The position numbers and the translations under genes are program-made. A stretch of 64,000 bases of DNA from Pycnococcus provasolii (taxonomy: Eukaryota > Chlorophyta > Pseudoscourfieldiophyceae > Pseudoscourfieldiales > Pycnococcaceae): assembly GCA_938743325.2 (NCBI GenBank), contig OW568867.1, positions 372,001 through 436,000 of the forward strand, given 5' to 3'. Each line of letters begins with the position of its first letter. Position 1 is the first letter of the stretch. Below are positions 3,291 to 46,481 of this stretch, in pieces. The notes under the pieces are model-generated. The model saw only the letters and a list, made by a program, of their open reading frames with translations, did no database searches and had not been told where the DNA came from.

Positions 3291-3407
3291 CTGTATTTTA
3301 TTTTCTGCGATCAGATGAAGATGGATGGAAGAGCGCGCCCAAAGGAGCGTTTTCGGGGTGGTGAATTCTGAGATGTGCCTTGTACTTTGTATACAGTGTC
3401 GCGCTGT

Positions 3408-3418
3408 CCGGTGGGGAT
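3408..3418 (+). other. leader strand of the leader-trailer helix of the permuted pre-tRNA
   Basis: CCGGTGGGGAT can pair with ATCACCACCGG at 3601-3611 in the trailer (10 of 11 pairs, one G-A). Leader-trailer pairing next to the anticodon stem is what permuted tRNA precursors use to form the splice site. A perfect bulge-helix-bulge was not found by eye. Confidence 0.5.
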
Positions 3419-3430
3419 ACCTGTTCAGAT

Positions 3431-3586
3431 TACCGGAGGTCTCGGGTTCGACCCCCGCTAGGCGTACGAAAAAGCGCCTGTAAGTCTACCTCTAACTACC
3501 ACAAATAAAAAAGAAAAAAATCACTAACAACCTAACACACTAATAAAACAGATAGCTCAGTGTTTGGTTAGAGCGCTGGTCTTATG
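3431..3586 (+). tRNA. candidate permuted tRNA-Ile(UAU): 3' half precedes 5' half
   Basis: The 3' half (3431-3466) carries an anticodon-stem 3' strand (ACCGG), variable loop, T arm with a perfect B-box core (GGTTCGA) and acceptor strand TAGGCGT plus discriminator A. After 7 bases comes the 5' acceptor strand GCGCCT (3474-3479). A GT-AG insertion (3480-3551) follows, and then A-TA-GCTC, a D loop with GGTT, GAGC, G and anticodon strand CTGGT, ending in CTTATG (3581-3586). Removing the insertion gives GCGCCTA, which pairs with TAGGCGT at all seven positions (one G-U). The D stem and anticodon stem also pair. One T-stem pair (49-65) is T-C. If the usual 37/38 cut applies, the anticodon is TAT (3583-3585). 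Permuted tRNA genes are established in some algae. The assignment is inferred from sequence only. Confidence 0.62.
3480..3551 (+). other. 72-nt GT-AG intron-like insertion inside the tRNA acceptor stem
   Basis: The insertion starts with GTAAGT, a strong spliceosomal donor, and ends in AAAACAG. It is A-rich and holds several CTAAC-like branch candidates. It splits tRNA positions 6 and 7; precise removal restores both the acceptor stem and the TAGCTC A-box start. It could instead be a large bulge cut by tRNA endonuclease, or a recent intron insertion that kills the gene. Confidence 0.5.
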
Positions 3587-3611
3587 TCACGGCATATTTG
3601 ATCACCACCGG

Positions 3612-3634
3612 CCGCAGAAATGCGGTTTTTTTTT
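3612..3634 (+). terminator. RNA polymerase III type terminator
   Basis: A CCGCA/TGCGG hairpin (3612-3625) is followed by nine T (3626-3634). It lies downstream of the tRNA 5' half, as expected if transcription begins before the 3' half and runs through both halves. Confidence 0.5.
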
Positions 3635-4115
3635 GCACAACCCCACAGACCTGATGGAAGAACCGGCCACGAGCTTTGACCACCGACAACATGACTTGCA
3701 AGGTCCGTCCGAGGTCATGCAAGACAAAGAGTGCGACGGATCCCATCCCATCCCATCCCGGATCCATAAATGCGACAAAAAGAAGACGAGAGGAGGCAAA
3801 TAAATCAGCCAAGAGGAGGTGGTGACTGGTGAACTTCGGCCACGTGTCGCTTTGCCATTTGGATGTGGAAAACAAAACGTCATCACAATTTGGAAAACAA
3901 CATGTCAGCCACTTTCATTCGCATCTGCAAGGTAAGTCAAGGCGTCAGGCAGTGGCTTACTTTTCCGTCATGACCGTCATATTGTCGTGCTCTCCACAGT
4001 ATGGCTGAGGCTCCCCTTGGCCTCACACTTGTGTCTCGGCAACCATCATTCTTCACAACTTGCGCAATCATTTGCTCAACTTGTTGCACTCGCTTATTAG
4101 CTTTCTTCAAGCAAT
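3635..4115. other. intergenic, no gene recognised
   Basis: No supported ORF or RNA seen. It contains a short CATCC repeat (about 3742-3762) and presumably the promoter of the peroxidase-like gene. Confidence 0.5.
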
Positions 4116-7100
4116 ATGACTGTGAAACTGCTCAACAAGCAACGCGTGGCCAAGCGCACGTACGGGTACCTCTCGCTCGCCGTCGCGTGCGTGTTTACCT
4201 CGCTGGCACTCCTCGCTTCCCCCGTGGAGGTATACGCGCAAACTGCGCCGCCTCACCGGTTCACTCAGGTGCGTGAACGCATAGAAGCAAGGTTCAACGG
4301 AGGAGGAGGAGGAGGAAGCGGAAGCGGAAGCGGAAGTGGAAGCGGAGGAGGAGACGGCAGTGGAGGAGGAGGAGGAGGAGACGGACCAGGAAGTGGAAGT
4401 GGAGGGAACGGAGGTGGACAGGGCAGTGGCAATAACGACGACAACAACAACAACAACAACAACAACCGCCGCATGCTCAAGGCTGACAACTTCGAAATGA
4501 AACTTGCAGCCAGCTCCGGCTGCCCGTTTGCGCGACGCATGCTCAAGCAGCAGGTTACTGGAGGCGATGGCAACGGCAACGGCAACGGAGGAGGAGGAGG
4601 AGGAGGAGGAGGAGGAGGAGGAGGCGGAGGAGGAGGCAACGGAGGCGGCGGAAATGGCCAGACATCCGCCGCGACGTTCCTTCGCCTGTCGTTCCACGAC
4701 GCTGGCACGTTCGACCCCAGCAGCAACCGTGGTGGACCGCACGCGACGATACGCTTCAACGCCGAACGCGATAACAACGACAACAACGGACTCGACGGTG
4801 CGATCACCTTCCTCGAGAACCTGCAGCAGGACTTCCCGGAGTACAGCCTCGCGGACCTCATCCAGGCGGCGGCGTCGATCGGCGTCGAGCACACGGGTGG
4901 CCCAGTCATCCCAATCACGTTCGGACGCGTGGATGCGGCGACGCCGAACCTCGCGTCGCCAGGAAATCGTCTACCCGACGACAACGACGGCCCGAACCAG
5001 CTTCGCAACACCTTCGGGCGCATGGGCTTCAACGACAAGGAGATCGTGGCACTCAGCGGCGCACATACGCTCGGACGCAAGCGCCGTGGAGGTGGCCCCG
5101 ATGGCCCATTCACGGAAAACGAAAACGTCTTCTCGAACGACTACTTCGTGCAGCTCGTCTCCGGTGCGCCGCCGCAGGGGACTGTTCGCCTTGACAGCGA
5201 CGCGGCTCTTTTGGAGCCTGGGTTCATCGAGCACGTGCAGGAGTTTGCGACGAACCAGCAGAGCTTCTTCGATGCGTACGTGGCTGCGCACGAGAAGATG
5301 GGCGCGCTTGGCATTGACAGCCTCACGACTCAGCCGCCAGCAGATCCGACGCTGCCGAGCCCGCCGCCGCCGAGCCCGCCGAACCCGCCGCCGCCGAGCC
5401 CGCCGCCGCCGCCACCGCCGAGCCCGCCAAACCCGCCGCCGCCGAGCCCGCCGCCGCCGCCACCGCCGAGCCCGCCAAACCCGCCGCCGCCGAGCCCGCC
5501 GCCGCCGCCACCGCCGAGCCCGCCGAACCCGCCGCCGAGCCCGCCACCGCCGAGCCCGCCGCCGCCGCCGCCGCCGAGCCCGCCAAACCCGCCACCGCCG
5601 AGCCCGCCGCCGCCGCCACCGCCGAGCCCGCCGAACCCGCCGCCGCCGAATCCGCCGCCGCCGAGCCCGCCGAGCCCGCCGCCGAATCCGCCGCCGCCTA
5701 CGACGACGACGACGACGACGACCACGAAGGCACCTGCACCGCCTCCGCCGATCACGATAGTAGACCCGAGTCCGCCGCCGCCAACGGAAACCACCACACA
5801 GGCGCCCTCACCACCGCCGCCTACGACGACAACGACGCAGGCACCCTCACCGCCGCCGCCTACGACGACAACGACGCAGGCGCCCTCGCCGCCTCCGCCG
5901 CCGCCGCCGACTACGACCACCACGGCTGCTCCGACTACGACCACCACGGCTGCTCCAATTGCGACTACCACGGCTGCTCCAATTACGACTACCACGGCTG
6001 CTCCGACTACGACTACCACGGCTGCTCCGACTACGACTACCACGGCTGCTCCAGCGACTACCACGGCTGCGCCGACGCCAAACGAGCCAAGCGTGGGCTC
6101 GCCAAGCGTGGGAACTCTCGAAGAAGTCGCCCTCAGCGCTCCAGTGACTGAGGAGGTGGCGGTCTTTCGCCGCTCCAGCACGAACGTTACGGTCGAAACA
6201 CGCGACGTGGCCACCGGCGAGATTGTGCTCACGGGTGTAGACGCAACCGAGCTGAACACAACGGCCGTGGAGGAGGTGGTTGCCCGCCTCGCGAATTGCA
6301 CACGCAACGCGACGCGTGTCACGCGTGTGCGTCGTCTTCGCCGCCGTGGACGCCGCAATGAGCTCGGACGTGCACTGCTCGCCAAGGACGATGCTGTGGC
6401 TGTTAGCTTCACCGTGCTTGCGGAGGACGACGAGGAGGCTGCCAGCATTGCGCGCTCTCTCAATCGCACGCTGACGAATCGCACAAAGTGCCGCAAGGAG
6501 TTTGCTGAGGAGGGTGTCATCACGGACGACGTCACGGCGATTGAGCAGCCCGAGCCGGGCACCAGTGCCGTGTTTGTGACGCGCGAAGAGCGCCGTCGTG
6601 GCAAGAAAGGAAAATGGGGCGAGAAGAACAAGGCTAACGACACTGATGTGCTTGACGACGATATCGTCGAGGATGATACTGAGGTTGAGATTCTCGCGGG
6701 GTTTGACACAGCTCGTGACTTTGTGGAGTCGCTGCGAGATGGCAAGAAGCTGCCAACCGAGCCCAACGGCACGGAGATTGACGTGGGCGAAGATGTCTTT
6801 GAGGTGGATGAGACGGATGTTGCCACAGCCATCAACATTCTCGAGCGACTGCGTGAGGCGATGGAGCTTGCAGATGCGGTAACCATCATTGTGGACGACG
6901 ACGACGACGACGACGACGGGGACGATAAGGTTGTGGAGGACGAGGAGGAGAAGGATAATGACGCGAAGAAGTTGCCGATCCGAGATGTCCTCAAGGACAA
7001 GCTTGGAGAGGTGCTCCGTGAGGCTCAGAATCTTTTGCCGCCGAAAAGTGAGGAGGATACGACATCGACATCGGCGTCGACGTCGATATCGACATCGACA

Positions 7101-7715
7101 TCGACCTCCGCTGATGATGTCAACAAGGAGGAGCCACCGCTTGGTTGGACGGACAGCGTGCAGGATGTGTTTGACAAGCTCGGGGAAGCTGCGACAGATG
7201 GTGTGAAGGCTGTGCAGGAGAAGAGCGCTCCAGCGGCGGAGTCAGCCAAGGCAAGTGCGCCTGAGGATCCGATGATGATGTATGCGGGCATCGGCGGTGC
7301 TCTCGTCGTCATGATGGCCGTTGCCGTGTGCTGCCTTCGCCGTCGTCGTGCTGCTGCGAGTTCCCATGAGGCAGAACTTCCGCAGTTTATGTCGGCCATC
7401 CCGAGGGGCAATGCTCATGATGAGCACCAGAAGGAGATGGCGCAGCATGCATTCGCCGCTCGTGCACGTCAGTACGAATCAGCTCCTCCACCAGCTGCTG
7501 AGTATTCCGCGTGGGGTGAGGAGAAGCCGGGACCTGTGGCGGAAGCTGTGACGAATGGTGCGAGCCTGCGCACGTACGATGCGGTGGAGGTGTACGAGGA
7601 GATGAAGAACGACGATGAAGTTGTCGTGCCACTGCCGGGTGCAACTTCTCAGACGGCAACAGCGAAAGAGGAGCGCAGCGGCGATTTGACAATCACGTCG
7701 TTCAGCTTCTTCTAA
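4116..7715 (+). CDS. membrane-anchored extracellular ascorbate-peroxidase-like protein with SPPPP stalk
   Basis: The 1199-residue protein begins with a signal peptide (hydrophobic LSLAVACVFTSLALLASPV, ending near VYAQ). Gly/Ser- and Gly/Asp/Asn-rich linkers hold two RRMLK motifs. A class I haem-peroxidase domain follows at about 180-392: LRLSFHDAGTFD carries the distal Arg and His, and IVALSGAHTLGR carries the proximal His; the FSNDYFVQL segment resembles ascorbate peroxidase. Next come an SPPPP/NPPPP stalk (about 411-528) like pherophorin or extensin glycoproteins, Thr-rich tandem repeats, a mixed domain with NxT sites and two acidic blocks. A TM helix (about 1051-1075, GIGGALVVMMAVAVCCL then RRRR) precedes a short tail. 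The topology suggests a cell-surface H2O2-consuming enzyme tethered to wall material. Substrate is unknown. Domains seen; role inferred. Confidence 0.8.
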   Translation: MTVKLLNKQRVAKRTYGYLSLAVACVFTSLALLASPVEVYAQTAPPHRFTQVRERIEARFNGGGGGGSGSGSGSGSGGGDGSGGGGGGDGPGSGSGGNGGGQGSGNNDDNNNNNNNNRRMLKADNFEMKLAASSGCPFARRMLKQQVTGGDGNGNGNGGGGGGGGGGGGGGGGGNGGGGNGQTSAATFLRLSFHDAGTFDPSSNRGGPHATIRFNAERDNNDNNGLDGAITFLENLQQDFPEYSLADLIQAAASIGVEHTGGPVIPITFGRVDAATPNLASPGNRLPDDNDGPNQLRNTFGRMGFNDKEIVALSGAHTLGRKRRGGGPDGPFTENENVFSNDYFVQLVSGAPPQGTVRLDSDAALLEPGFIEHVQEFATNQQSFFDAYVAAHEKMGALGIDSLTTQPPADPTLPSPPPPSPPNPPPPSPPPPPPPSPPNPPPPSPPPPPPPSPPNPPPPSPPPPPPPSPPNPPPSPPPPSPPPPPPPSPPNPPPPSPPPPPPPSPPNPPPPNPPPPSPPSPPPNPPPPTTTTTTTTTKAPAPPPPITIVDPSPPPPTETTTQAPSPPPPTTTTTQAPSPPPPTTTTTQAPSPPPPPPPTTTTTAAPTTTTTAAPIATTTAAPITTTTAAPTTTTTAAPTTTTTAAPATTTAAPTPNEPSVGSPSVGTLEEVALSAPVTEEVAVFRRSSTNVTVETRDVATGEIVLTGVDATELNTTAVEEVVARLANCTRNATRVTRVRRLRRRGRRNELGRALLAKDDAVAVSFTVLAEDDEEAASIARSLNRTLTNRTKCRKEFAEEGVITDDVTAIEQPEPGTSAVFVTREERRRGKKGKWGEKNKANDTDVLDDDIVEDDTEVEILAGFDTARDFVESLRDGKKLPTEPNGTEIDVGEDVFEVDETDVATAINILERLREAMELADAVTIIVDDDDDDDDGDDKVVEDEEEKDNDAKKLPIRDVLKDKLGEVLREAQNLLPPKSEEDTTSTSASTSISTSTSTSADDVNKEEPPLGWTDSVQDVFDKLGEAATDGVKAVQEKSAPAAESAKASAPEDPMMMYAGIGGALVVMMAVAVCCLRRRRAAASSHEAELPQFMSAIPRGNAHDEHQKEMAQHAFAARARQYESAPPPAAEYSAWGEEKPGPVAEAVTNGASLRTYDAVEVYEEMKNDDEVVVPLPGATSQTATAKEERSGDLTITSFSFF

Positions 7716-14901: not shown

Positions 14902-17900
14902 TTATGCACTCGAAGGACACGCGTGTGCAAGGGAGTGCAAAAATCGACGCAGGCTCGAGCGGCCCTTGAACAGGTTCTGACGACCGATCCTCTCGTTCGC
15001 GACGTGAGGGCTGTCTGTGCTCTGTCCGAGCGGAAAGTGCAGAGCTGGGCAGAACATCGCCTTCTCAAGCAAATATGTCACCGGCATGGTGCCGCCCTCG
15101 CGCACAAAAAGAACCTCGCGTCCCCACTCAGCCTCCAGCGCGCCCTTCGCAGCCTGGTAAAATTTGTTCGACGGATCGCCGAGCCACCACATGCCCGTGT
15201 TGTGGATTGTCACAGAAACGCGATTGTCGCCTCCGAGGCGCGCAAATGCGTCGCGAATGTGCTGCTCGAAACTGCGGGACACGGATTCGGGCGTCTGATC
15301 GGGGACGAAGCGAATCGAAACCTTGCCAACTGCCTTGCATGGGATGACGGAGAAACGAGTTGGACCAAATTTGCGCCACGCGCTGTTTGCACCGTGCACA
15401 GATTCGTCACCGGCTGGTGAAGGGTCCCTATCCCTGCGATCTTGCACAGTCTCAGCCTCAGCTTGTGGCAATTCAATGTCGACGATACTCATGCTGGGCT
15501 CGCACCACCTTGCACGCAGCACCTCGCCAGCGCCGCACGCGCAAAGGGCAGGAACGCCGATGGACTGCCGGTACAGCTCCGTGTCAAAAATGCCGGGTGC
15601 GTCGCAGCCATGCAGAGCACTCGCGGACGACGTTGACACACCGTCGTAGATTCCTCGCACAGCCAGCCGAGGACCGTCGTTTCCGCGATCGTCTGAGTAG
15701 AGGGTGCCCAGCACCTTCACGAGGTCCCTCATGGGCTCGCTGAACGCACCGCCGTCGTTCCCGCTGTGCAAATCCTTCTCTGGCCCACTCACCTCCACGG
15801 AGATTGTCATCATGCCGCGCATTCCCCACGTCAGGCACGGCTGCGTGTCGTTCAGCCACAGAGTGTTGGAGATTAGCACAACGTCCGTGGATGTTCCGAG
15901 GATGGCTCGCGCCTCTGGGCTTTTAATCGCCTCGTCGAACCCTCCCGAGCCATTCTCCTCCTCGCCCTCCAGCACGAATGTCACGTTGCATGGTAGACGA
16001 CTGCCCGACGACGAGCACTCGTCGAGCACCTCGCGGAGCGCAAACACCATCGCGAGGATTGGGCCCTTGTTGTCTGTCGCACCGCGGCCATACAGATAGC
16101 CATTGATCGAGTTGAGTTCCCAAGGCGGCGTTCGCCAGTCATTCTCAAGAGCCGGCTGAACGTCGTAGTGGCCGTAGAAGCAAAGCGTTGGCAAATCCGG
16201 GTCACATCCGACGCGACCAAGCACAATGGGATTGCGCTCGTCACCCGTCAGCGGGTTTGGAGGAGGGTTCAGCAACTGTACCTGAGCACCGAGCTTCCTC
16301 TCGAGCAGCTCGAGAAGAAACGACGCGGCGGCCAGGCAGCTCGAGCGACGCATTCCACCAACGCTCACGGAGCGGATCGCGACGAACGGGCGAAGCTCCT
16401 CCTCCATCTCCGCGTCGTAGCATCGAACCTCGGCACCGTTGCCCATCTTGACCGAAGCTGAAGGTACCGACATCGCGCGAGCAATTCCGCCAATCTCTGC
16501 ACGATGACGCTTGGCGGCACGCATCGGTGTGACAATGTTGCCTTCTCCTTCTTCTCCTTCTTCTTCTTCGTCGTCGACCCCCATGCATCCGCCGTGGAGA
16601 GAAAGGCATCGTATGGTGCCGTCCGCGGTACCGCAGCATATGAACGAAGCTCCTCGAGACGACGAGCACACTGACAGGCTGAGCAAACCAAGACGCTCGG
16701 GCGGAAAGGTTGCTAAAGATGACGCCGTGGATGGATTAAAGCCTGACTTGAGCGGCCAGACGTCGAGTCGGTTCACAACCTTAAAATTCCGCCAGAGCAG
16801 CACGCACCCGTCGTCGCCGCAGGATGCGAAGGAGGAACCCTTGCCAGGTAGCGCACAAAGCCCCAACACGTGACCGCAGTGAGCCTGCAGGCTTGAGACG
16901 CAGCTTCGCAGATTGACATCCCAAACTCGAATCGTGGAATCGGCAGAACCACTGAGCACGTGAACATCGTTCTCGTCGCGAGTGGGTACGGAGCAGAGGC
17001 AAAGTACAGCACCGCGATGGCCGTACAGAACGCTCGCGCATCGCATGAGCGTTTGTTGACGCGCATCGCCATGTTCCATCTCGTACTCCCAAACGAGCAC
17101 GTGACCGTCTCCGCCACCGGATACGATCATTGGCATGCGGCTGCCGTTCACGAAAAGCGTCGCAAACACAGCCGCGCAGTGGCGATAATAGCCCGTGTCA
17201 CCATGTGCCCCCGCCGTCGCGGCTGGCACTGCACGAACGAACGGCGTACCTGGACGTGCGGGTGTCGAATGCGTTGAAATTGGAGTTTGCACCGCCCGTC
17301 CTGCAATCACCGACACGTGTTCATCAACCTGGAGGAGAGGGATGGTGCACGGTCCACCGGGCAGTGGACACCGAATTCCCGCCGGAGAAGTCATCGATCG
17401 TTCCAAATCCAGATTGCCGTGATCGAAGAGATCGTGCATGTCGTACAGGTGCACGCTTCCGTCCATGAGACCGATCGCGACGCGGTTGCCATGCGCAGCA
17501 AGTGAGAGGATGTCACCCGTCTGCTTCGGCAGTTGGACGCTGCAAGTGCACCGCGCATTCGCCGCACCACTTTTGATATCCCACTGCTTGATCGTTCGCC
17601 CAGCACAGCTCAGCAGGCTCCCGTCGTCGTCGGTCACCGCCAGGCCAAGAATCGCGCGCCTGTGTCCAAACAATTTTGCGATGCACTCGAGCTTCACGAT
17701 GTCCCACGCGCGAATTGAGGCATCCGACGCGCCTGAGTAGAGAACGCCAGATCGCGACGACAAGGCTGTCACGCCGCTATCGTGCTTGGAGAGGATGTGC
17801 GTGCTGTCCGTGCCAATGGCACTCGCCATTCCGCCGACAGCGCTGTTGCTGCCAGCGCCAATGCACGAGGATGGCATGAGCACGCACTTGCCTGGCACCT

Positions 17901-18972
17901 CGCAGGCGCGAAGAGACTGCATGGCACGTCCGACGAGAGTGCGTGACGCGACGGAGTCGGCAGACGTTCCCAAGATTGGCGAAAGCAGCGCGTCAATCAC
18001 GGAACCACATTTGCTGCGCGTGACCACGAGCGCATGCTGCGGTGCAACCGCAACCCAGTCACTGGAATGCGACGTGACGGGCTCGGACGCGACGATGCAC
18101 GCCTTGGATCTTCTGTCCTGGCGCGTGAAGCCGTGCTCCTTGGTGGACTCGTTTTGTTTTCCGAAGCTCGTCCCGAGCGCGTAGTACAGCGACGCGCACT
18201 TCGCGCTGTCTTGGCTGGCATACCGCGTGGCGATGAGGCACGAGCCGTCACTCATGCAGAAGTTCAGCAGGCTCACGTTTCCGTCGGCACCCGGCGGTAT
18301 TCCCGCGGCGTCATCCGCCGCCTCCTGCTCCCTTCCCATGGACGTGACGATGGCGATAACCTTCTCCACACACGACAGGAGCTCTTGTGGCGACCTCGCT
18401 CTCGTGTTCCAGTCGTGCGTGCCGTCGTACAGTTGGTTCAGGAACAGCGCAAAGCACACGGCGGAGTCCGAGTGAAAGCTGTGAACGAGCTCGTACACGC
18501 CATCGGACAGCGTGTCGAGCAGCTTGCGCCGCATTCGTTGGAAGCGCGCCACACCTCCGTTGTGCATCCACATGTACCTCCCACACCCGAACGGGTGACA
18601 GTTCGTCTCGCTGACTGGTATTCCGGGGTACGCGGCTCTGACGTGCGCGAAGAGGAGCGAGCTTTCAATCTTCTCGCACAGCTTCGTGAGGTTGCAGTTG
18701 TTCCACGCGGGCGCCGTGGATGTGAAAATGCACGGCGAGATGTCATCCTTGTTATTTTGGGAGGTGCCGTCTCCAGAGCCCCCCGAGGTGGAGTCCGAAG
18801 AAGGCTTGTACCACCCGATACCGAATCCGTCCGCGTTGAGCGAGCCTGGCAGGCCGATGGACTGCACGCGTTCGTTCGCGGAGTACGACTGCACCAAGAT
18901 GGAGTGCTTGGGCTTCGTGACGAGGTCACTGGCGAGGCGACGCGGGCCCAGGTACGCCATGAGGCGGCACAT
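14902..18972 (-). CDS. Dug3-Dug2 fusion: class II glutamine amidotransferase + WD40 + M20 peptidase
   Basis: One uninterrupted frame of 1356 residues. Starting at 18972 gives MCRLMAYLGP, placing the class II amidotransferase nucleophile at Cys2; NADGFGIGWYKP and NCHPFGCGRYMWMHNGGVARF complete a Dug3-type domain (1 to about 290). A WD40 propeller follows (about 390-790; repeats such as SASDASIRAWDIV-like and HVLSGSADSTIRVWDVN). The last part (about 857-1356) is an M20 metallopeptidase with metal ligands in YGHYDVQP, RGATDNKGP, EGEEENG, KDLHSGNDGG and HFPLGQSTDSPH. In yeast, Dug2 is WD40+M20 and Dug3 is the amidotransferase; together they cleave the gamma-glutamyl bond of glutathione and Dug1 finishes Cys-Gly. 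Here both are one polypeptide. Domains are seen; glutathione as substrate follows from the family. Confidence 0.85.
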   Translation of the reverse strand: MCRLMAYLGPRRLASDLVTKPKHSILVQSYSANERVQSIGLPGSLNADGFGIGWYKPSSDSTSGGSGDGTSQNNKDDISPCIFTSTAPAWNNCNLTKLCEKIESSLLFAHVRAAYPGIPVSETNCHPFGCGRYMWMHNGGVARFQRMRRKLLDTLSDGVYELVHSFHSDSAVCFALFLNQLYDGTHDWNTRARSPQELLSCVEKVIAIVTSMGREQEAADDAAGIPPGADGNVSLLNFCMSDGSCLIATRYASQDSAKCASLYYALGTSFGKQNESTKEHGFTRQDRRSKACIVASEPVTSHSSDWVAVAPQHALVVTRSKCGSVIDALLSPILGTSADSVASRTLVGRAMQSLRACEVPGKCVLMPSSCIGAGSNSAVGGMASAIGTDSTHILSKHDSGVTALSSRSGVLYSGASDASIRAWDIVKLECIAKLFGHRRAILGLAVTDDDGSLLSCAGRTIKQWDIKSGAANARCTCSVQLPKQTGDILSLAAHGNRVAIGLMDGSVHLYDMHDLFDHGNLDLERSMTSPAGIRCPLPGGPCTIPLLQVDEHVSVIAGRAVQTPISTHSTPARPGTPFVRAVPAATAGAHGDTGYYRHCAAVFATLFVNGSRMPMIVSGGGDGHVLVWEYEMEHGDARQQTLMRCASVLYGHRGAVLCLCSVPTRDENDVHVLSGSADSTIRVWDVNLRSCVSSLQAHCGHVLGLCALPGKGSSFASCGDDGCVLLWRNFKVVNRLDVWPLKSGFNPSTASSLATFPPERLGLLSLSVCSSSRGASFICCGTADGTIRCLSLHGGCMGVDDEEEEGEEGEGNIVTPMRAAKRHRAEIGGIARAMSVPSASVKMGNGAEVRCYDAEMEEELRPFVAIRSVSVGGMRRSSCLAAASFLLELLERKLGAQVQLLNPPPNPLTGDERNPIVLGRVGCDPDLPTLCFYGHYDVQPALENDWRTPPWELNSINGYLYGRGATDNKGPILAMVFALREVLDECSSSGSRLPCNVTFVLEGEEENGSGGFDEAIKSPEARAILGTSTDVVLISNTLWLNDTQPCLTWGMRGMMTISVEVSGPEKDLHSGNDGGAFSEPMRDLVKVLGTLYSDDRGNDGPRLAVRGIYDGVSTSSASALHGCDAPGIFDTELYRQSIGVPALCACGAGEVLRARWCEPSMSIVDIELPQAEAETVQDRRDRDPSPAGDESVHGANSAWRKFGPTRFSVIPCKAVGKVSIRFVPDQTPESVSRSFEQHIRDAFARLGGDNRVSVTIHNTGMWWLGDPSNKFYQAAKGALEAEWGREVLFVREGGTMPVTYLLEKAMFCPALHFPLGQSTDSPHVANERIGRQNLFKGRSSLRRFLHSLAHACPSSA

Positions 18973-19395
18973 GATAAGAACTATGATATGACGAATGCGA
19001 GGGATGAGAATGAAACCGAATAAGAAACACGGCCGGCCGCCTGAAACAGGAGGATTCCACTCAGAGCTTGGGGAGGGCATTTGGGGGAGATTTTTTCAAT
19101 AAGAATTGGGCACTCCCCCTTGCCCAAGGACTTTTCACATTATTCCCATGTCGTAATTGTCATGGGCTTGTTTCACGGGACCATCTCCTTTCGAAACATC
19201 TTGGTGACGTTCTTCTTGACGGTGTGGGACCCACAAGTTGTGGGACCCGTGCAGCGGTGCAGCGGTGCAGAATCACCAGGGCTGCATGGAGAACGTCACG
19301 TGATGAACCCTTTACCCGTCGACGGATCACGTGAACTGCTCACCTTAACTTGCCTATCATCCCAGGTCAAAGAAGGGAAAACAAATAGGATGGTA
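18973..19395. other. intergenic, no gene recognised
   Basis: Upstream region of the Dug fusion. The frame of that gene stays open to 19080, but the added residues do not fit a class II amidotransferase. A 118-codon plus-strand frame (19081-19437) has no recognisable content and runs into the repeat below. Confidence 0.45.
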
Positions 19396-23947: not shown

Positions 23948-25645
23948 TTACGCCACCTTCTGAACGGGCGTGGCGACGGAGTGCTTCTTCGCCGTGCCCG
24001 TTCCCATCACAACCTCCTCAATGAGACCCTCCCACTTGCGCGCCGGCTCGGCCCATGACAGGTCCTGCGCAATGCACGCCTTGGACATGCGGGGGAACGT
24101 GGAGGGGTACGCGTCGATCGCCGCCTTGGAGGCGGAGACGACAGCCTGCACGTCCTCCGACGTGATCGTGTCGGGGTCGAGGCGGCCCATGTGGAAGCCC
24201 GTTTTGCCCTCCTTCACCGTGTCGACGAGTCCACCGACGGACGCGACGACGGGCACCGTTCCGTAGCGCATGGCGTGCAGCTGCACAAGTCCGCACGGCT
24301 CGAAGCGCGACGGCACCATCATGTAGTCCGCTCCTGCGGTGATGAGGTGAGCGACGGGCTGCGAGAACTTCACGACACCGGCGGCGCCCGGCACGGACTT
24401 CTCGAGCTGCTCGACAGCCTTCTCGAGCTTTTTCTTGCCCGTTCCGAGAATCACAACCTGTCCACCGGCGGCAACGATGCCGGGCACAGCCTTGAGCAGG
24501 ATGTCCACACCCTTCTGCTCCTCGAGGCGTCCGATGAATCCGAACACCGGTGCGGTGGGGCTCACGGGAAGGCCAACCTCAGACTGCAGCTCAGCCTTGG
24601 CAACAGCCTTGCCCTGGGCAACCGTGTCCTCGTCGTACGGGAGGGAGAGGTACTTGTCCGTCATCGGGTTCCACTCGATGACGTCCATTCCGTTGACGAT
24701 GCCCTCGATGCCAACCTGGTTGATGACTGAGGAGAGCTCGACACCACGCTCGTCGTCCGTGGCCACCTCCTTCGCGTAGTTCGGCGACACCGTGACGCAG
24801 CGGTCGGCGGAGAGGAACGCCGCCTTCATCCAGTTCACCTTCTTGAACTTGCCTCCCGTGGGCTTGATGACCTCGTCCTCGTCAGCGGGCGACGTCTCGT
24901 CGTAGATCTTCGAGTTTCCGTCCGTGAAGTCGAACTTGGCCATCGAGCTGGCGGGCAGGTTGAGCTGGTCGAACGTGTCGGGCGTGTATCGTCCCTGGAA
25001 CGCGATGTTGTGCACGCAGAAGATGCACTTGGAGTCCTTGAACTCGCCGCGCGGCTTGTAGACTTCCTTCAGGTACACGGGCACGAGGCCGGAGTGCCAG
25101 TCGTTGGCAATGAAGGTGGCGTGCTCGCCGTAGCTGAACGGGAGGCAGCGGGCAGCCTCGATGGCCGCCTGGCAGAAGAGCGCGAATCGCTTCGGGTTGT
25201 CGGCGTAGTCAGCTCCCGACTTCTGTCCGTAGAGCTTGCTTCCCGTCTTGCCCCAAACCTTCTCGAGGAAGGACGGGTGGTCGATGAAGACGCGGTCCAC
25301 CCCCTTGATCTTGGCGTGGAAGAAGCGAACCTCCTCGCCCATAATGTTGATGGTCACGGACGTGTCCCACGCCTGCGCGTACTGGTCGTAGCGCGGCTGG
25401 ATGGACATCACGCGGTGTCCTCGCTTGGCGAGTTCGATGGGCAGAGCCCCGACGACGTCACCGAGTCCTCCCGTTTTGGAGAAGGGTGCGCACTCGGTGG
25501 AGACGAAGATGATATCTTTGGGTGATTGCGTTTTCTGCACAGGTTTCGCGACCATGGCAGCACGAGGCGTCACACGCGATCCTCGGGAAACGCGCGCACG
25601 AGGCGCGGCAGTAGTAGTACGAGAAGCCATACGTGAGAAGGCCAT
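23948..25645 (-). CDS. starch synthase, granule-bound (GBSS I) type
   Basis: 565 residues. The N-terminus is rich in Ser, Arg, Thr and Ala without acidic residues, typical of a plastid transit peptide. The GT5 domain begins at IIFVSTECAPFSKTGGLGDV, with KTGGLGDV (57-64) binding ADP-glucose. GSKLYGQKSGADYADNPKRF and the ANDWHSGLVPVYLKEVY segment are characteristic of GBSS rather than soluble synthases. The GT-B C-terminal half holds GFIGRLEEQKGVD and SRFEPCGLVQLHAMRYGTVP; the second glycine loop reads ASVGGLVDTV where ASTGG is usual. GBSS extends alpha-1,4 glucan within granules, making amylose. No starch-binding or coiled-coil domain is present. This gene is a main reason to place the organism among starch-storing algae. 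Confidence 0.9.
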   Translation of the reverse strand: MAFSRMASRTTTAAPRARVSRGSRVTPRAAMVAKPVQKTQSPKDIIFVSTECAPFSKTGGLGDVVGALPIELAKRGHRVMSIQPRYDQYAQAWDTSVTINIMGEEVRFFHAKIKGVDRVFIDHPSFLEKVWGKTGSKLYGQKSGADYADNPKRFALFCQAAIEAARCLPFSYGEHATFIANDWHSGLVPVYLKEVYKPRGEFKDSKCIFCVHNIAFQGRYTPDTFDQLNLPASSMAKFDFTDGNSKIYDETSPADEDEVIKPTGGKFKKVNWMKAAFLSADRCVTVSPNYAKEVATDDERGVELSSVINQVGIEGIVNGMDVIEWNPMTDKYLSLPYDEDTVAQGKAVAKAELQSEVGLPVSPTAPVFGFIGRLEEQKGVDILLKAVPGIVAAGGQVVILGTGKKKLEKAVEQLEKSVPGAAGVVKFSQPVAHLITAGADYMMVPSRFEPCGLVQLHAMRYGTVPVVASVGGLVDTVKEGKTGFHMGRLDPDTITSEDVQAVVSASKAAIDAYPSTFPRMSKACIAQDLSWAEPARKWEGLIEEVVMGTGTAKKHSVATPVQKVA

Positions 25646-26182
25646 TCTGACTGAAGAATGGTCGAGGGAATGGGGGGGAGGGGAGGGGAGGGGCAGCTTG
25701 GACGGTGCACAGAGAACGTCGTTGAACGAGCCTCAACGAGAACGACAGCCCACAGGACAGACCCGACCCGACCCCTGATTTGCTCCGAGCCGTCAACACT
25801 TCGGAATGCATTATGGGCCTCTCGTCAGATTTTCTCGGAGCAAATCTAGCGGTTCTGCGGCCTTCCCACGGTGGACCCCGTGGATTCCCCCAACCGATAT
25901 TTTTTGGCGAGAATTTTAGTTTAGTTTAGTTTTTTTAGTTCAGGGGTTGGAATCCCTAGGAGGAGTCGAATTCCTGTTTGGTTATTACTGAGGTGCTCCC
26001 CTCCCCTCAACCTCCCTCCCCTCCCCGTTCTTCTTCTTCCCTGTCCTGTCCCCCTCCCCTCCCCATCTCATTCCTCACCTCCTCGTTTCTCACCTCTTTT
26101 TGTTTTCGATGTTTATGGCGCCTTCTCCTGATCCAACTGGCGCTGGTTTCTTGCTGCTGCTGCTGCTGCTGCCTTCAGCTGT
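25646..26182. other. intergenic, no gene recognised
   Basis: The start side holds the GBSS promoter, with a purine-rich G tract near 25670-25695. The middle has TTTAG repeats (25917-25938) and a C-rich/T-rich stretch (25995-26100). No RNA gene seen. Confidence 0.5.
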
Positions 26183-27730: not shown

Positions 27731-28005
27731 TTGGGGAATGGCGTGGTGGGTGGTTGGTGTGCCTCTTGTTTTGTTATGTTTGTTTTGTTGGTGCCATTCC
27801 TTGTTATTTCTTGTTGTAATGTACTAGGTTCTTTTATTTTCCTTGTTTTTTTTTTCTTGTTTTTTTCTTCTTGTTTTGTTTTTCTTGTTTTGTTTTTCTT
27901 GTTTTTTTTTTCTTGTCACACACACTCACTCCAACCTGCTCGGCGGTGACCCGCCAAGAAGGCAGCACACGCCCGGATCGCGCCTGTCGTTCTTCAACTA
28001 GGGGC
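27731..28005. repeat. T-rich simple sequence
   Basis: Runs of TTTTTCTTGTTTTG (about 27775-27915). It separates the AP2-like gene from the calcium-repeat array. Confidence 0.6.
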
Positions 28006-29367
28006 ATGCCAGACCACCTGGAGGCTGTGGAAGCGACGGCGACGGCATCCCTGACCACCTGGACGACGATGACGACAACGACGGCATCCCGGATAGTCAG
28101 GACAATGACGACGACGGCGACGGCTTCCCAAACCACTTGGAGGCTGTGGACAGCGACGGCGACGGCATGTTTGACCGCCTGGACGACGATGACGACAACG
28201 ACGGCATCCCAGATAATCAGGACAATGACGACGACGGCGACGGCATCCCGGACCACCTGGAGGCTGTGGACAGCGACGGCGACGGCATTCCTGACCACCT
28301 GGACGACGATGACGACAACGACGGCATCCCGGATAGTCAGGACAATGACGACGACGGCGACGGCATCCCAGACCACCTGGAGGCTGTGGAAGCGACGGCG
28401 ACGGCATCCCTGACCACCTGGACGACGATGACGACAACGACGGCATCCCGGATAGTCAGGACAATGACGACGACGGCGACGGCTTCCCAGACCACTTGGA
28501 GGCTGTGGACAGCGACGGCGACGGCATGTTTGACCGCCTGGACGACGATGACGACAACGACGGCATCCCGGATAGTCAGGACAATGACGACGACGGCGAC
28601 GGCTTCCCAAACCACTTGGAGGCTGTGGACAGCGACGGCGACGGCATGTTTGACCGCCTGGACGACGATGACGACAACGACGGCATCCCAGATAATCAGG
28701 ACAATGACGACGACGGCGACGGCATCCCGGACCACCTGGAGGCTGTGGAAGCGACGGCGACGGCATCCCTGACCACCTGGACGACGATGACGACAACGAC
28801 GGCATCCCGGATAGTCAGGACAATGACGACGACGGCGACGGCATCCCAGACCACTTGGAGGCTGTGGACAGCGACGGCGACGGCATCCCTGACCACCTGG
28901 ACGACGATGACGACAACGACGGCATCCCGGATAGTCAGGACAATGACGACGACGGCGACGGCATCCCGGACCACCTGGAGGCTGTGGACAGCGACGGCGA
29001 CGGCATGTTTGACCGCCTGGACGACGATGACGACAACGACGGCATACCGGATAGTCAGGACAATGACGACGACGGCGACGGCATCCCGGACCACCTGGAG
29101 GCTGTGGACAGCGACGGCGACGGCATTCCTGACCACCTGGACGACGATGACGACAACGACGGCATCCCGGATAGTCAGGACAATGACGACGACGGCGACG
29201 GCATCCCGGACCACTTGGAGGCTGTGGACAGCGACGGCGACGGCATCCCTGACCACCTGGACGACTATGACGACAACGACGGCATCCCGGATAGTCAGGA
29301 CAATGACGACGACGGCGACGGCATCCCGGACCACCTGGAGGTTGTAGACAGCGTGCTGGTGTCTTGA
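28006..29367 (+). pseudogene. thrombospondin type 3-like calcium-repeat array, frame broken
   Basis: About eleven copies of a 120-bp unit encode DGDGIPDHLEAVDSDGDG and then DDDDDNDGIPDSQDNDDD, the DxDxDG pattern of thrombospondin type 3 repeats that wrap calcium ions. The units form a higher-order repeat of 359 bp (three units minus one base): in every third unit GTGGACAGCG reads GTGGAAGCG, losing a C near 28030, 28389 and 28748. Each loss shifts the frame, so no single frame runs through; the longest intact stretches are 28137-28390, 28496-28750 and 28855-29367. The last ends in EVVDSVLVS and a stop. No signal peptide or other domain is attached. It is a decayed or mis-assembled fragment of a surface or secreted protein gene. 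Confidence 0.65.
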
Positions 29368-33970: not shown

Positions 33971-34220
33971 TGCGTCCTCTGAGATGATATCTGTGGCGAC
34001 GGTTCCGTCCGGCGTGTGGAGACCACGTTAGCTCACCTACTCCATGATGGAAAAATGGGTGGTGTATGATGATGAATGAAGAATCTAGAAGAATCTAGAA
34101 GATTCTTAGCTCGGCCCTGTCTTCAACCACGCCAAGGCCAGTGCTCGTGCCGCCGCAGTCGACGAAGACGCTCCGCCTCCTGCTCCCTTTATGGCTTTGA
34201 AATCGCCACCACTGCTGAGA

Positions 34221-34604
34221 GGGGCGAATCGATTGGGGGTTTGTTTTGGTGAAACCCCCACTGGAGATTTGGTTTGTTTGGTTTTACGTCTTGACTTTTT
34301 CAGGACGTGGTGTATTTATAGTGGGTGACTGACAGCCCACTATAATCCCCCCCTTTGGAATAAACAACTCAAGACGTTTTCCATTGATGTAAAGATAGCG
34401 ATCGTGTGATCACGATCGCTCGACGCGCTTTGCTGCTGGCGCGCTGGCGGCGCGCTTCTTCTTTTCTTTACACTTGTAACTCATTCTTGACTTTTTACTT
34501 ACTTTCACTCGACCACAACCTATGGCGTCTGAAGGTGATACCGGTGCCGGGGGCACACACCAAGAACACACACCACAACCTACAGGCAGTGGCTCGTTCC
34601 GTCA
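34221..34604 (+). repeat. 384-bp tandem repeat, copy 1 (LTR/leader-like)
   Basis: It is followed head to tail by a near-identical copy. It contains a TATTTATAG box, a short inverted repeat (GATCGTGTGATCACGATC), CAAGACGTTTTCC, a GGCGCGCTGGCGGCGCGC patch and, at its end, an ATG (MASEGDTGAGG). The order of parts resembles the repeat pair at 19396-20086, suggesting LTR plus leader of a related copia-like fossil. Inferred. Confidence 0.5.
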
Positions 34605-34988
34605 GGGGCGAATCGATTGGGGGTTTGTTTTGGTGAAACCCCCACTGGAGATTTGGTTTGTTTGGTTTTACGTCTTGACTTTTTCAGGACGTGGTGTATT
34701 TATAGTGGGTGACTGACAGCCCACTATAATCCCCCCCTTTGGAATAAACAACTCAAGACGTTTTCCATTGATGTAAAGATAGCGATCGTGTGATCACGAT
34801 CGCTCGACGCGCTTTGCTGCTGGCGCGCTGGCGGCGCGCTTCTTCTTTTCTTTACACTTGTAACTCATTCTTGACTTTTTACTTACTTTCACTCGACCAC
34901 AACCTATGGCGTCTGAAGGTGATACCGGTGCCGGGGGCACACACCAAGAACACACACCACAACCTACAGGCAGTGGCTCGTTCCGTCA
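34605..34988 (+). repeat. 384-bp tandem repeat, copy 2
   Basis: Second copy, directly adjoining the first. Near-identity implies recent tandem duplication. The frame that leaves this copy (34906-35526) has no recognisable domain. Confidence 0.55.
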
Positions 34989-43663: not shown

Positions 43664-43825
43664 GGGAGAAATACAGTACGCCCCGAGCCAGAAAATCGAA
43701 ATTGCAGTACGCCCCGTTTTCGTCCTAGTTCGCCCCGGAAAGAAATCCTAATTACAGTACGCCCCGGTCTGAAATTCTAACCCTAACCCTAACCCCAACC
43801 CACTGTATTCTGTCGTTGTCCGGTT
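43664..43825 (+). repeat. left terminal inverted repeat of the MULE
   Basis: Contains three CAGTACGCCCCG motifs (43674, 43705, 43755) and a related TTCGCCCCGG (43729), probably transposase-binding sites, then a TAACCC tract (43777-43800) 72 bases before the transposase ATG. Confidence 0.9.
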
Positions 43826-43871
43826 TTTTGGACCTTTTTGTCCATTTCTCGCGCCAAAACATTTCGAGCCC

Positions 43872-46481
43872 ATGGCACCCAGGCAGCGTGCCGTACTAGC
43901 TAGTCCAAGTGGGAACGTCGCAGCAACATTGCTGCAACTTAATCGTGAGAACAACACACAGACATCAACATCGCGAGGAGCTACACGACGATCTGCGGCT
44001 ACAAGTCGCGCGTTGTTTACCGCGCAAGCTGGTTCAAGTCGTGGCGTTGGAGAATACGATGCTTCAAGGACTCGGGCACACTCTACGCGCCGTGCACGTG
44101 GAGGAGTTCAAACGCGGGGTGATCTTGCAAAGGAAGCGCTTGAACCTCCGGCAGACGATGCACATGATCCTCCGGCAGCGGAATCGCTTGAACCTCCGGC
44201 AGACGATGCACATGATCCTCCGGCAGACGGTGCGCTTGAACCTCCGGCAGACGGTGCGCATGATCCTCCGGCAGACGGTGCGCATGATCCTGAGGATGCT
44301 AGTACACAAAGGCGACGTGGACGTCCAGCTCAAGTATCCCCAATTTCAACTCCGGAAAAGAAGAAGGTGAAGAAGGAGCTTCAGCAAAGGCGGCGGGAGG
44401 AGGCTGCTGAGATTTTGAAAATGGAAAGCCCTTTGAAGCCAATGAGAGTCAGCGAGGCGGAGCACGTTACCTTTGTGGCTGGGTCAACAACTTATCCGCA
44501 CCGCAGTGCAGTACTTGCGAACATTAAGGCGTGTGCAGAGAGAGACAAGAAAGCTTTGTCTTTCTCTGACGGACCTAATGGAAAAGGCCAAAAAAGTGCT
44601 GATTTTGTTCGCGCACTTTGCCCTGTAAAGGGCTGTGCCTTCAAAACATCTTTCAGACTTTGCCACGGCAAGTGGTTGTGCAAGGCCCACGAGGCCCACA
44701 CTTGCGTTGTCTTGCCGGAGTTCAAGAAGAAAGGAAACTTCCACGCTTACACTGCTCCCGAACTCGCGCCCGTATTGACCGAGGCCCTGGCGAGGAACGC
44801 CAACATGAAGCCGAACGATGCAGTCGCCCACGTACAGCCGTACGTGGGGAAGGATGTCACGAACGCGTTCGCTGGTAAGGTCTTGAAGGAGGCGAAGGCG
44901 CTCGCCTCCGCCTCCTTATCTGCAAGCAAATTCAAGCCGTTGGCTGAATTGGTGAACGCATCTGGCATCGGTCACCTCACGGTGCACACGACGAACGCGG
45001 AGGGGATGAAAAAGATCTACAAGGCGCGCATGAAGGCAGAGCATGAGCTCAAGGAGAAGGATCTACCTGATAAAGCAAAGACTCCATTCGTCGAGCCTAA
45101 CACAGAACACATAACCGACGAAGGGGGTGAATACCTCACTGGGTACACGTACGTACCAGGTGCAATCAAAGCTTTGTGGAACGCTGGGCTCGTCGAGAAG
45201 ACTCCGAGCTTTGCAGATGGAGCGCATAGCGAGGGTGCGTTCGGAGGAACTTTCCTCTCGACTACGACACTTGACGCGAATCGCCATTTGCTTCCAATGT
45301 GTGTCACCTGGACTATCATGAATGAAGACAAGGAAAGTTGGACGAGTCATTACCGCGCCGTGAAAGAACATTATCCTGCTCTTGATGTCAGCACCCATGC
45401 AAACATCACCGACGGAGATAAGGGCCTGAAGCCGTCCCGTGCGGAGGTGTTCCCGAACATGCTTGGGTTTTCGTGCGAAAGACACCGCAGCGAAAACGTA
45501 CGCGTCCAGCCCGGCGTCGGCTCGGCAGGGCGCGACGCGTATCGTGAGGCTGTGTACGGATACTCTGCGGCGAAGCTCGCGCACGCGAAGAGCATCATGA
45601 ACGCCCAAACAAAGGCGTACTTGGAAAAGCTGCCGGACAAATGTCAGTATCTTCGCGCGGCTTTTGAAGCTGGTGCGCATCTCCGCGGATATGCCGTATC
45701 CTCCCCAGCTGAGTCTTGGAACAATTGGATGACAAACCAGAGCGTCCGTCACAACGCGAACGTGGTGCAAAGTTTCTTGAACCTGATGGACGGAATCGAG
45801 AACCAGACGGAGAAAAGAATTGCGGCGGCGGCTAAACGAACTGACGCCGCTCCGCCAAAGATTCGTCTCCTGCTCAACTCAGGCGGCGAGGCGAAAAAGA
45901 AGGTCCGCGACCGCGTCGTTGTGTTTCAAAACAACCTGCGACGTGTCGCCAAAGTGTGGCACAAGTCGTATCCAGGGATCTGCCAAACAGTGAACCTAAA
46001 TGACGGTACGTGTACTTGCTGTCGTCCTGAAATTGTGGGAGGTCCTTTCTGCGTTTCTCTTGCGAGCGCCGCGAAGTCTGCTGGTGTGGATCTTGCGAAG
46101 TTTTTGCCGCCGCAGGAGACTACTAAGCGATGGCGTGAGCAGTGGGAGTATGTACACCAATGGCGTGCAGGCAAAACAATCCCGTGCATAGCGGATCTTG
46201 CGCTACTCCCTGAACACCCGTTGAAGGATCCTGTCGCAGGCCCTCGCCCAAAAGGCCGTCCTGCAGAGCCGAAGAGGCATCTCAGCGCCGTGGAGGATGC
46301 AGCCAAGCAGCACAAGTGCAAAGTGTGTGGCATGAAAGGCCACAATGCACGCTCAAAGCAGTGCCCAAAGTTCAGTCTCACAGCTCACGACACGACTTTG
46401 GCGCTCCCTGGAGGAGATGAGGACGACGAGAATGAAGAGGAGGAGTTCATGATGCCCCAAGAAGAATCTGGAGAAGAATGA
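43872..46481 (+). CDS. MULE transposase
   Basis: 869 residues. The N-terminus is disordered with a minisatellite-encoded LEPPADDAHDPPAD repeat. CPVKGCAFKTSF and KWLCKAHEAHTC (about 245-275) form a Cys-Cys-His zinc finger like the MuDR/FAR1 DNA-binding domain. The MULE catalytic domain follows: first Asp in FADGAHSEGAFGG (about 449), second Asp in ITDGDKGL (about 514), CERHRSENV, and Glu in SSPAESWNNWM (about 613). After it come a SWIM-like CTCCRPEIVGGPFC motif and a zinc knuckle CKVCGMKGHNARSKQC (about 816-831), with an acidic C-terminus. All expected parts are present, so it is probably active; it cuts at the inverted repeats and makes 9-bp duplications. Confidence 0.9.
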   Translation: MAPRQRAVLASPSGNVAATLLQLNRENNTQTSTSRGATRRSAATSRALFTAQAGSSRGVGEYDASRTRAHSTRRARGGVQTRGDLAKEALEPPADDAHDPPAAESLEPPADDAHDPPADGALEPPADGAHDPPADGAHDPEDASTQRRRGRPAQVSPISTPEKKKVKKELQQRRREEAAEILKMESPLKPMRVSEAEHVTFVAGSTTYPHRSAVLANIKACAERDKKALSFSDGPNGKGQKSADFVRALCPVKGCAFKTSFRLCHGKWLCKAHEAHTCVVLPEFKKKGNFHAYTAPELAPVLTEALARNANMKPNDAVAHVQPYVGKDVTNAFAGKVLKEAKALASASLSASKFKPLAELVNASGIGHLTVHTTNAEGMKKIYKARMKAEHELKEKDLPDKAKTPFVEPNTEHITDEGGEYLTGYTYVPGAIKALWNAGLVEKTPSFADGAHSEGAFGGTFLSTTTLDANRHLLPMCVTWTIMNEDKESWTSHYRAVKEHYPALDVSTHANITDGDKGLKPSRAEVFPNMLGFSCERHRSENVRVQPGVGSAGRDAYREAVYGYSAAKLAHAKSIMNAQTKAYLEKLPDKCQYLRAAFEAGAHLRGYAVSSPAESWNNWMTNQSVRHNANVVQSFLNLMDGIENQTEKRIAAAAKRTDAAPPKIRLLLNSGGEAKKKVRDRVVVFQNNLRRVAKVWHKSYPGICQTVNLNDGTCTCCRPEIVGGPFCVSLASAAKSAGVDLAKFLPPQETTKRWREQWEYVHQWRAGKTIPCIADLALLPEHPLKDPVAGPRPKGRPAEPKRHLSAVEDAAKQHKCKVCGMKGHNARSKQCPKFSLTAHDTTLALPGGDEDDENEEEEFMMPQEESGEE

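Follow-up and report, generated by a model that had tools for sequence, protein, structure and literature searches.

A candidate circularly permuted tRNA-Ile(UAU) gene with an intron-like insert in Pycnococcus provasolii

Layout of the locus

The locus lies within a 64,000-nucleotide stretch of contig OW568867.1 (hereafter the window, that is, the whole stretch of DNA that was analysed), between two gene models, one on the minus strand with its 5' side at 3290 and one on the plus strand that corresponds to a peroxidase and starts at 4116. Here, the 3' half of a tRNA is found upstream of the 5' half on one strand, with the junction between positions 37 and 38 (Table 1). Features expected of a single transcript are present, namely the absence of any T run in 3467-3551 and a run of nine Ts after the 5' half of the tRNA.

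Table 1. Features of the candidate permuted tRNA locus (window coordinates; tRNA positions in conventional numbering)
Feature	Position	Strand	Remark
Possible upstream TATA-like element, TATACA	3390-3395	+	Seen by eye; putative function
Leader arm, CCGGTGGGGAT	3408-3418	+	Pairs with 3601-3611 at 10 of 11 positions
Leader bases opposite the anticodon loop (-6 to -3), then 2 nt to the proposed cut	3425-3430	+	
3' half of the tRNA (positions 38-73)	3431-3466	+	
T arm	3442-3458	+	
B box	3445-3455	+	Within the 3' half
Acceptor 3' strand	3459-3465	+	
A73	3466	+	
Bridge CGAAAAA, 7 nt	3467-3473	+	Between the 3' and 5' ends of the tRNA; no CCA encoded
Acceptor 5' strand, GCGCCT (positions 1-6)	3474-3479	+	
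72-nt insert GTAAGT...CTAAC...CTAAC...ACAG, proposed spliceosomal intron	3480-3551	+	Between positions 6 and 7; putative removal
tRNA positions 7-37, including D arm (A box) and G37	3552-3586	+	
U8	3553	+	
D arm	3555-3574	+	
Anticodon 5' stem and loop	3576-3586	+	
Anticodon UAU	3583-3585	+	
Trailer arm, ATCACCACCGG	3601-3611	+	
Hairpin CCGCA-GAAA-TGCGG, then T9	3612-3634	+	Likely Pol III stop; putative function
T9	3626-3634	+	

A previous sequence-only reading of this DNA had described a T arm with the acceptor 3' strand upstream of a D arm with the anticodon, followed by T9, and this order is indeed what one finds. The leader and trailer also pair as it had counted, and the two ends of the tRNA do face each other across the seven bases of the bridge. 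When the letters of both arms were shuffled, a pairing of 10 or 11 of the 11 positions was reached in 54 of 20,000 trials.

A tandem pair of ordinary tRNA genes was considered for the locus and rejected; there is no D arm upstream of 3431, since the strict A-box pattern occurs in the window at 3553 only. As a separate observation, the T9 run is directly preceded by a 5-bp hairpin with a GAAA loop (3612-3634, plus strand), an arrangement that resembles a bacterial intrinsic terminator.

The joined tRNA and its junction

When the two halves are joined and the insert is left out, 20 of the 21 stem pairs form (18 Watson-Crick and 2 wobble), the exception being U49-C65. The acceptor stem closes at 7/7 pairs (one G-U), the D stem at 4/4 and the anticodon stem at 5/5 (one U-G), while the T stem has 4/5, with the single mismatch that had already been pointed out. 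The sequence-only reading had stated that the acceptor, D and anticodon stems all close; this is correct once 3480-3551 is removed, and not before, and the insert had gone unmentioned. All 20 semi-invariant positions that were checked are as expected (including U8, A14, G15, C48, G18, G19, U33, U54, U55, C56, A58, and C61).

The identity of the tRNA is suggested by the anticodon UAU following U33 together with A73, as in tRNA-Ile(UAU). Position 37 departs from this identity, for the locus carries G37 (at 3586, as the sequence-only reading had it) in place of A37. A37 is the substrate of t6A. Among 42 tRNA-Ile(UAU) genes that were compared, A37 was present in 40 and G37 in 2, so that A37 is customary rather than strict in this set. 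The D-loop of the candidate has 12 nt, a length seen in 0/42 of the same genes, in all of which (42/42) it has 9 or 10 nt. Changing the join does not restore the usual base, since none of the alternative joins and insert registers (16 named forms amounting to 6 distinct sequences, plus one form with the insert) combines A37 with the anticodon UAU. The two genes with G37 (L022 and L036) are on viral contigs, and the L022 tRNA differs at base 37 from the otherwise similar tRNAs of L004, L005, and L014.

The 42 yardstick stretches were collected from viral contigs with a relaxed pattern of the 5' half, and each contains an ordinary tRNA-Ile(UAU) according to ARAGORN; searching the viral contigs with an exact T-half pattern and an exact D-arm pattern gave 0 contigs for either one. 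After duplicates were merged, 35 distinct genes remained, from which a tRNA-Ile(UAU) profile was built. Against this profile, which is not neutral and leans toward the candidate because its genes were selected by their likeness to the candidate's 5' half, the joined sequence scores 47.0 bits (E 1.5e-14), compared with 51.0-73.2 bits for the 35 members themselves. Just two of 200 letter shuffles were reported at all, the better of them at 1.6 bits. When the halves are left in their genomic order, the profile gives 25.0 bits to the 5' half and 7.6 bits to the 3' half.

Could unrelated tRNA-like words have been gathered by chance? We employed our own descriptor of a permuted tRNA (T arm, acceptor, D arm, and anticodon stem in permuted order, with room for an insert), which was composed after the candidate had been seen and permits both the insert and the long D-loop. 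Scanning for permuted tRNAs was one of the checks proposed beforehand, and it returned a single place in the whole window on both strands, namely this locus, with a score of 20. The descriptor is loose enough to yield 80 matches scoring at least 17 in 3083 dinucleotide-preserving shuffles of the window (both strands), though only one of those 80 equals the observed score, and the joined halves stand far above their shuffles in the profile comparison. We therefore regard a chance assembly as very improbable, and it is very likely that the locus is a permuted one derived from a tRNA.

Standard tools are silent here. ARAGORN, by which the candidate was also to be checked, called no tRNA in the window nor in 17 joined-form sequences. 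Rfam at the gathering score returned nothing for the window, and no tRNA for 3300-3700 at E values up to 10; the D half alone reaches 14.3 bits with the Rfam tRNA model (cut-off 29), and the best match of the T half alone is tmRNA at 4.7 bits, above one lower match from the same clan. Folding does not single out the proposed structure either. Other structures are preferred when the two strands fold freely (-57.7 kcal/mol vs. -54.1 kcal/mol with the stems forced), and likewise when the joined tRNA does, and the fold of the raw transcript (3405-3634) has a z of -1.43 and is matched by 18 of 200 shuffles.

Canonically, a 4-bp central helix with the intron includes the first two letters of the anticodon, and the splice sites lie in the bulges on either side, at 37/38 (PMC4090602). 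At this locus, positions 32-35 can be set against leader bases -3 to -6, where C32-G(-3), U33-A(-4), and A35-U(-6) pair and U34-C(-5) does not. A strict bulge-helix-bulge is thus absent, as the sequence-only reading had found, and a relaxed form can be drawn with 3/4 pairs. An unforced two-strand fold pairs the inner part otherwise, though it leaves the anticodon stem and the larger part of the leader/trailer helix in place. The permuted genes of green algae, as tabulated in PMC3978253, have 37/38 junctions of the relaxed hBH type; the position of the junction here fits this type II class, and its form may resemble the relaxed type.

The insert and its possible removal

Reading the locus as a permuted tRNA-Ile(UAU), as had been proposed, is still the best interpretation, and the position of the junction suits it; what had been overlooked is its most unusual part, the 72-nt GT-AG insert at positions 6/7. 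Structure sets the borders of the insert: the last base of the acceptor 5' strand is 3479 or 3480, and U8 occupies 3553. Read as 3480-3551, it starts with GTAAGT and ends with ACAG, and its removal brings A7 opposite U66; if G3480 is kept as position 7, the result is a G-U pair instead. CTAAC occurs three times, with adenosines 56, 24, and 16 nt before the end, and there is no AG between the last two of these adenosines and the terminal AG. The insert is unfolded (0 kcal/mol), with a composition of 39 A, 17 C, 12 T, and 4 G, and is devoid of a pyrimidine tract, which counts against an intron. Its ends and its donor-like and branch-like motifs are features of a GT-AG intron.

Such a combination is rare in the surrounding DNA. 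On the plus strand of the window, GTAAGT and YAG at the spacing of the insert were found at 4 of 63,920 starts, which are four registers of this one place, and the looser GTRAG with YAG at 8 of 63,920 starts, which represent two places. No second copy of the insert was detected in the window, the best other matches having E values of 0.13 or worse. Introns of coding genes offer little by way of comparison: four were predicted in the window by a simple coding-potential model, and 0/4 are backed by homology.

With these features, the insert resembles a spliceosomal intron rather than one of the tRNA type, and if the gene is functional, we consider it rather probable that it is one. Alternatively, a permuted tRNA-Ile(UAU) might lose its insert to the tRNA splicing endonuclease or another nuclease, with the GT and AG ends being coincidental. 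Introns at odd positions are known in algal tRNAs, some without a central helix (e.g., the 56-bp "no H" intron at 27/28 of the permuted O. lucimarinus tRNA-Ser(TGA) listed in PMC3978253), and the very short tRNA introns of the G. theta nucleomorph are described in PMC4090602 as leaving by an unknown route. Against such a route, the insert is unstructured, and neither BHB nor hBH can be made by the bases at its borders, where GCGC (3474-3477) stands opposite AAAC near the insert's end and is unpairable (by eye); moreover, the coincidence would have to involve the only GTAAGT and YAG at this spacing on the plus strand of the window. We find removal by a nuclease unlikely.

The insert might also be a 5'-UTR intron of the downstream peroxidase gene, whose Pol II transcript would then cross an old tRNA-like stretch. 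The peroxidase gene model starts on the same strand (at 4116), and a second GT-AG candidate (GTAAGT...CACAG, by eye) lies in between at 3932-3999 on the plus strand and could be an intron of the 5' UTR or first exon. However, the tRNA-like unit is closed by the hairpin and T9, and taking out the insert brings back together the very bases by which the acceptor stem closes; we deem a 5'-UTR intron quite improbable.

A recent pseudogene of a permuted tRNA, in which the insert would have arrived recently and would stay in any tRNA that is produced, must be taken as a serious rival to an active gene, because neither ARAGORN nor Rfam calls the locus, its sequences fold otherwise, it carries G37 and a 12-nt D-loop, and the codon AUA is rare (38 of 12,344 codons in 20 selected gene models, some of which may be wrong). 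The U49-C65 mismatch and the imperfect central helix point the same way, and eukaryotic tRNA genes with short insertions in the D or T arm are mostly regarded as pseudogenes according to PMC4090602. Yet decay should have cost some of the stem pairs and listed positions, all but one of which are intact, and the splice signals are preserved at the exact border. On balance, a pseudogene seems unlikely, and the locus is probably functional.

The reading that we prefer is that of a circularly permuted nuclear tRNA-Ile(UAU) gene of type II with a GT-AG intron between positions 6 and 7, to which we give about an even chance (roughly 0.5). What the letters show is how the two halves are ordered, which pairings can form, which conserved positions are kept, and that there are sequences like splice sites.

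In such a gene, RNA polymerase III would transcribe the leader, 3' half, 7-nt bridge, 5' half, and trailer, stopping at T9. The spliceosome would excise the 72-nt insert, so that GCGCCT is joined to A7 and the acceptor stem is complete; this step would probably be an early one because, until the insert is gone, the acceptor stem is out of register with positions 7 to 9. As the known algal pathway suggests, the tRNA splicing endonuclease may cut on the 3' side of G37 (3586) and on the 5' side of U38 (3431), and a ligase may close the ends into a circle. CGAAAAA would be excised by RNase P and tRNase Z, after which CCA would be added. The algal pathway, as outlined in PMC3978253, starts with transcription; the tRNA splicing endonuclease then cuts at the junction, the ends are ligated into a circle, the bridge is removed by RNase P and tRNase Z, and CCA is added.

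Permuted tRNAs have been reported from Ostreococcus, Micromonas, and the Bigelowiella nucleomorph (PMC3978253), and, in other reports, from Auxenochlorella and the green-derived nucleomorph of Amorphochlora. The type II genes of the first three (Maruyama 2010, as tabulated in PMC3978253) share with the candidate the 3' half in first place and the 37/38 junction, and the tabulated type II genes also share a short bridge (5-64 bp there, 7 here), a leader and trailer that can pair, and a T stretch downstream. The table in PMC3978253 (Soma) lists 34 permuted tRNA genes, 7 of them with introns; none of those listed is for isoleucine or has an intron in the acceptor stem, and the candidate would differ from them in both respects.

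Individual features have closer parallels elsewhere. The permuted tRNA-Ser(TGA) of O. lucimarinus has an extra intron in its 5' half that is similar in length to the insert and has no central helix, though isotype and intron position differ (PMC3978253, as tabulated). The tRNA-Ile(UAU) of C. merolae, as given in PMC9602550, is a heavily disrupted algal gene of the same isotype, but it is not permuted and its three hBHBh' introns (in the D, anticodon, and T arms) are of the BHB type. In some tRNAs of Thermoproteales, introns at position 3/4 also interrupt the 5' acceptor strand, though these are Archaea, the position is 3/4 rather than 6/7, and removal is of the tRNA type (PMC4090602).

Introns of the mRNA type can occur in small RNA genes. 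Fission-yeast U6 has a GT-AG intron of this kind in a non-coding Pol III RNA, as the insert would be, though U6 is not a tRNA (PMC10484740), and further examples are reported for U2 and rDNA, neither of them a tRNA. According to PMC13149111 and PMC4090602, it is a protein endonuclease, not the spliceosome, that takes out the introns of tRNAs. A search mostly of openly accessible literature, including parts of PMC11782384 and PMC12730881, turned up no tRNA gene reported to carry a spliceosomal intron.

If the insert is an intron whose loss completes the acceptor stem, the action of the spliceosome on a Pol III tRNA precursor becomes directly testable. A GT-AG intron at this locus, if true, would mean that a tRNA gene has gained an intron, possibly through reverse splicing or through another form of intron gain in a Pol III gene. 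The locus further suggests that small green algae can seem to lack some tRNAs when genes of this kind escape the standard finders, as happened here with ARAGORN and, according to the Auxenochlorella authors, with tRNAscan-SE.

Other features of the window

GC content varies from 0.54 to 0.64 in 4-kb steps, and long uninterrupted ORFs are common, with 40 of at least 300 aa. Published figures for Chloropicon (GC 57.5%, 0.50 genes per kb, and about 0.5 introns per gene) are similar to those of this window, a likeness and nothing more. Thirty ORFs were scanned against Pfam and three were used in PDB sequence searches. Among the latter is a starch synthase (23948-25732), which matches granule-bound starch synthase 1 (3vue_A) with 551.8 bits over 507 residues, followed by 6gng_A with 479.7; these entries are from rice and Cyanophora, respectively. 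The match points to the green lineage, and permuted tRNA genes are on record for green algae, which favours the reading of the locus given above. No relative of the starch synthase was found in the viral contigs.

The peroxidase model (4116-7715, plus strand) begins with a domain like that of ascorbate peroxidase, continues with a very long proline- and threonine-rich stretch, and has a hydrophobic segment near its C-terminus. On the minus strand, a single open frame of 1397 aa (14902-19095) unites a domain like class-II glutamine amidotransferases with WD40 repeats and an M20 peptidase, presumably recalling a fusion of Dug3 and Dug2 of the glutathione-degrading complex. A third frame (43773-46481, plus strand) has a weak match to a MULE transposase, at 25.0 bits where the cut-off is 27.6, together with a CCHC zinc knuckle that scores 23.1 bits (cut-off 22).

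The window also contains two repeats. At 28003-29353, a 120-bp tandem unit is present in 11.3 copies with 94% matches and higher-order periods of 359 and 479, and long frames are open on both strands of this array. At 34220-34988, a 384-bp unit is repeated head to tail in 2.0 copies with 100% matches, which would indicate either a very recent duplication or an assembly artefact.
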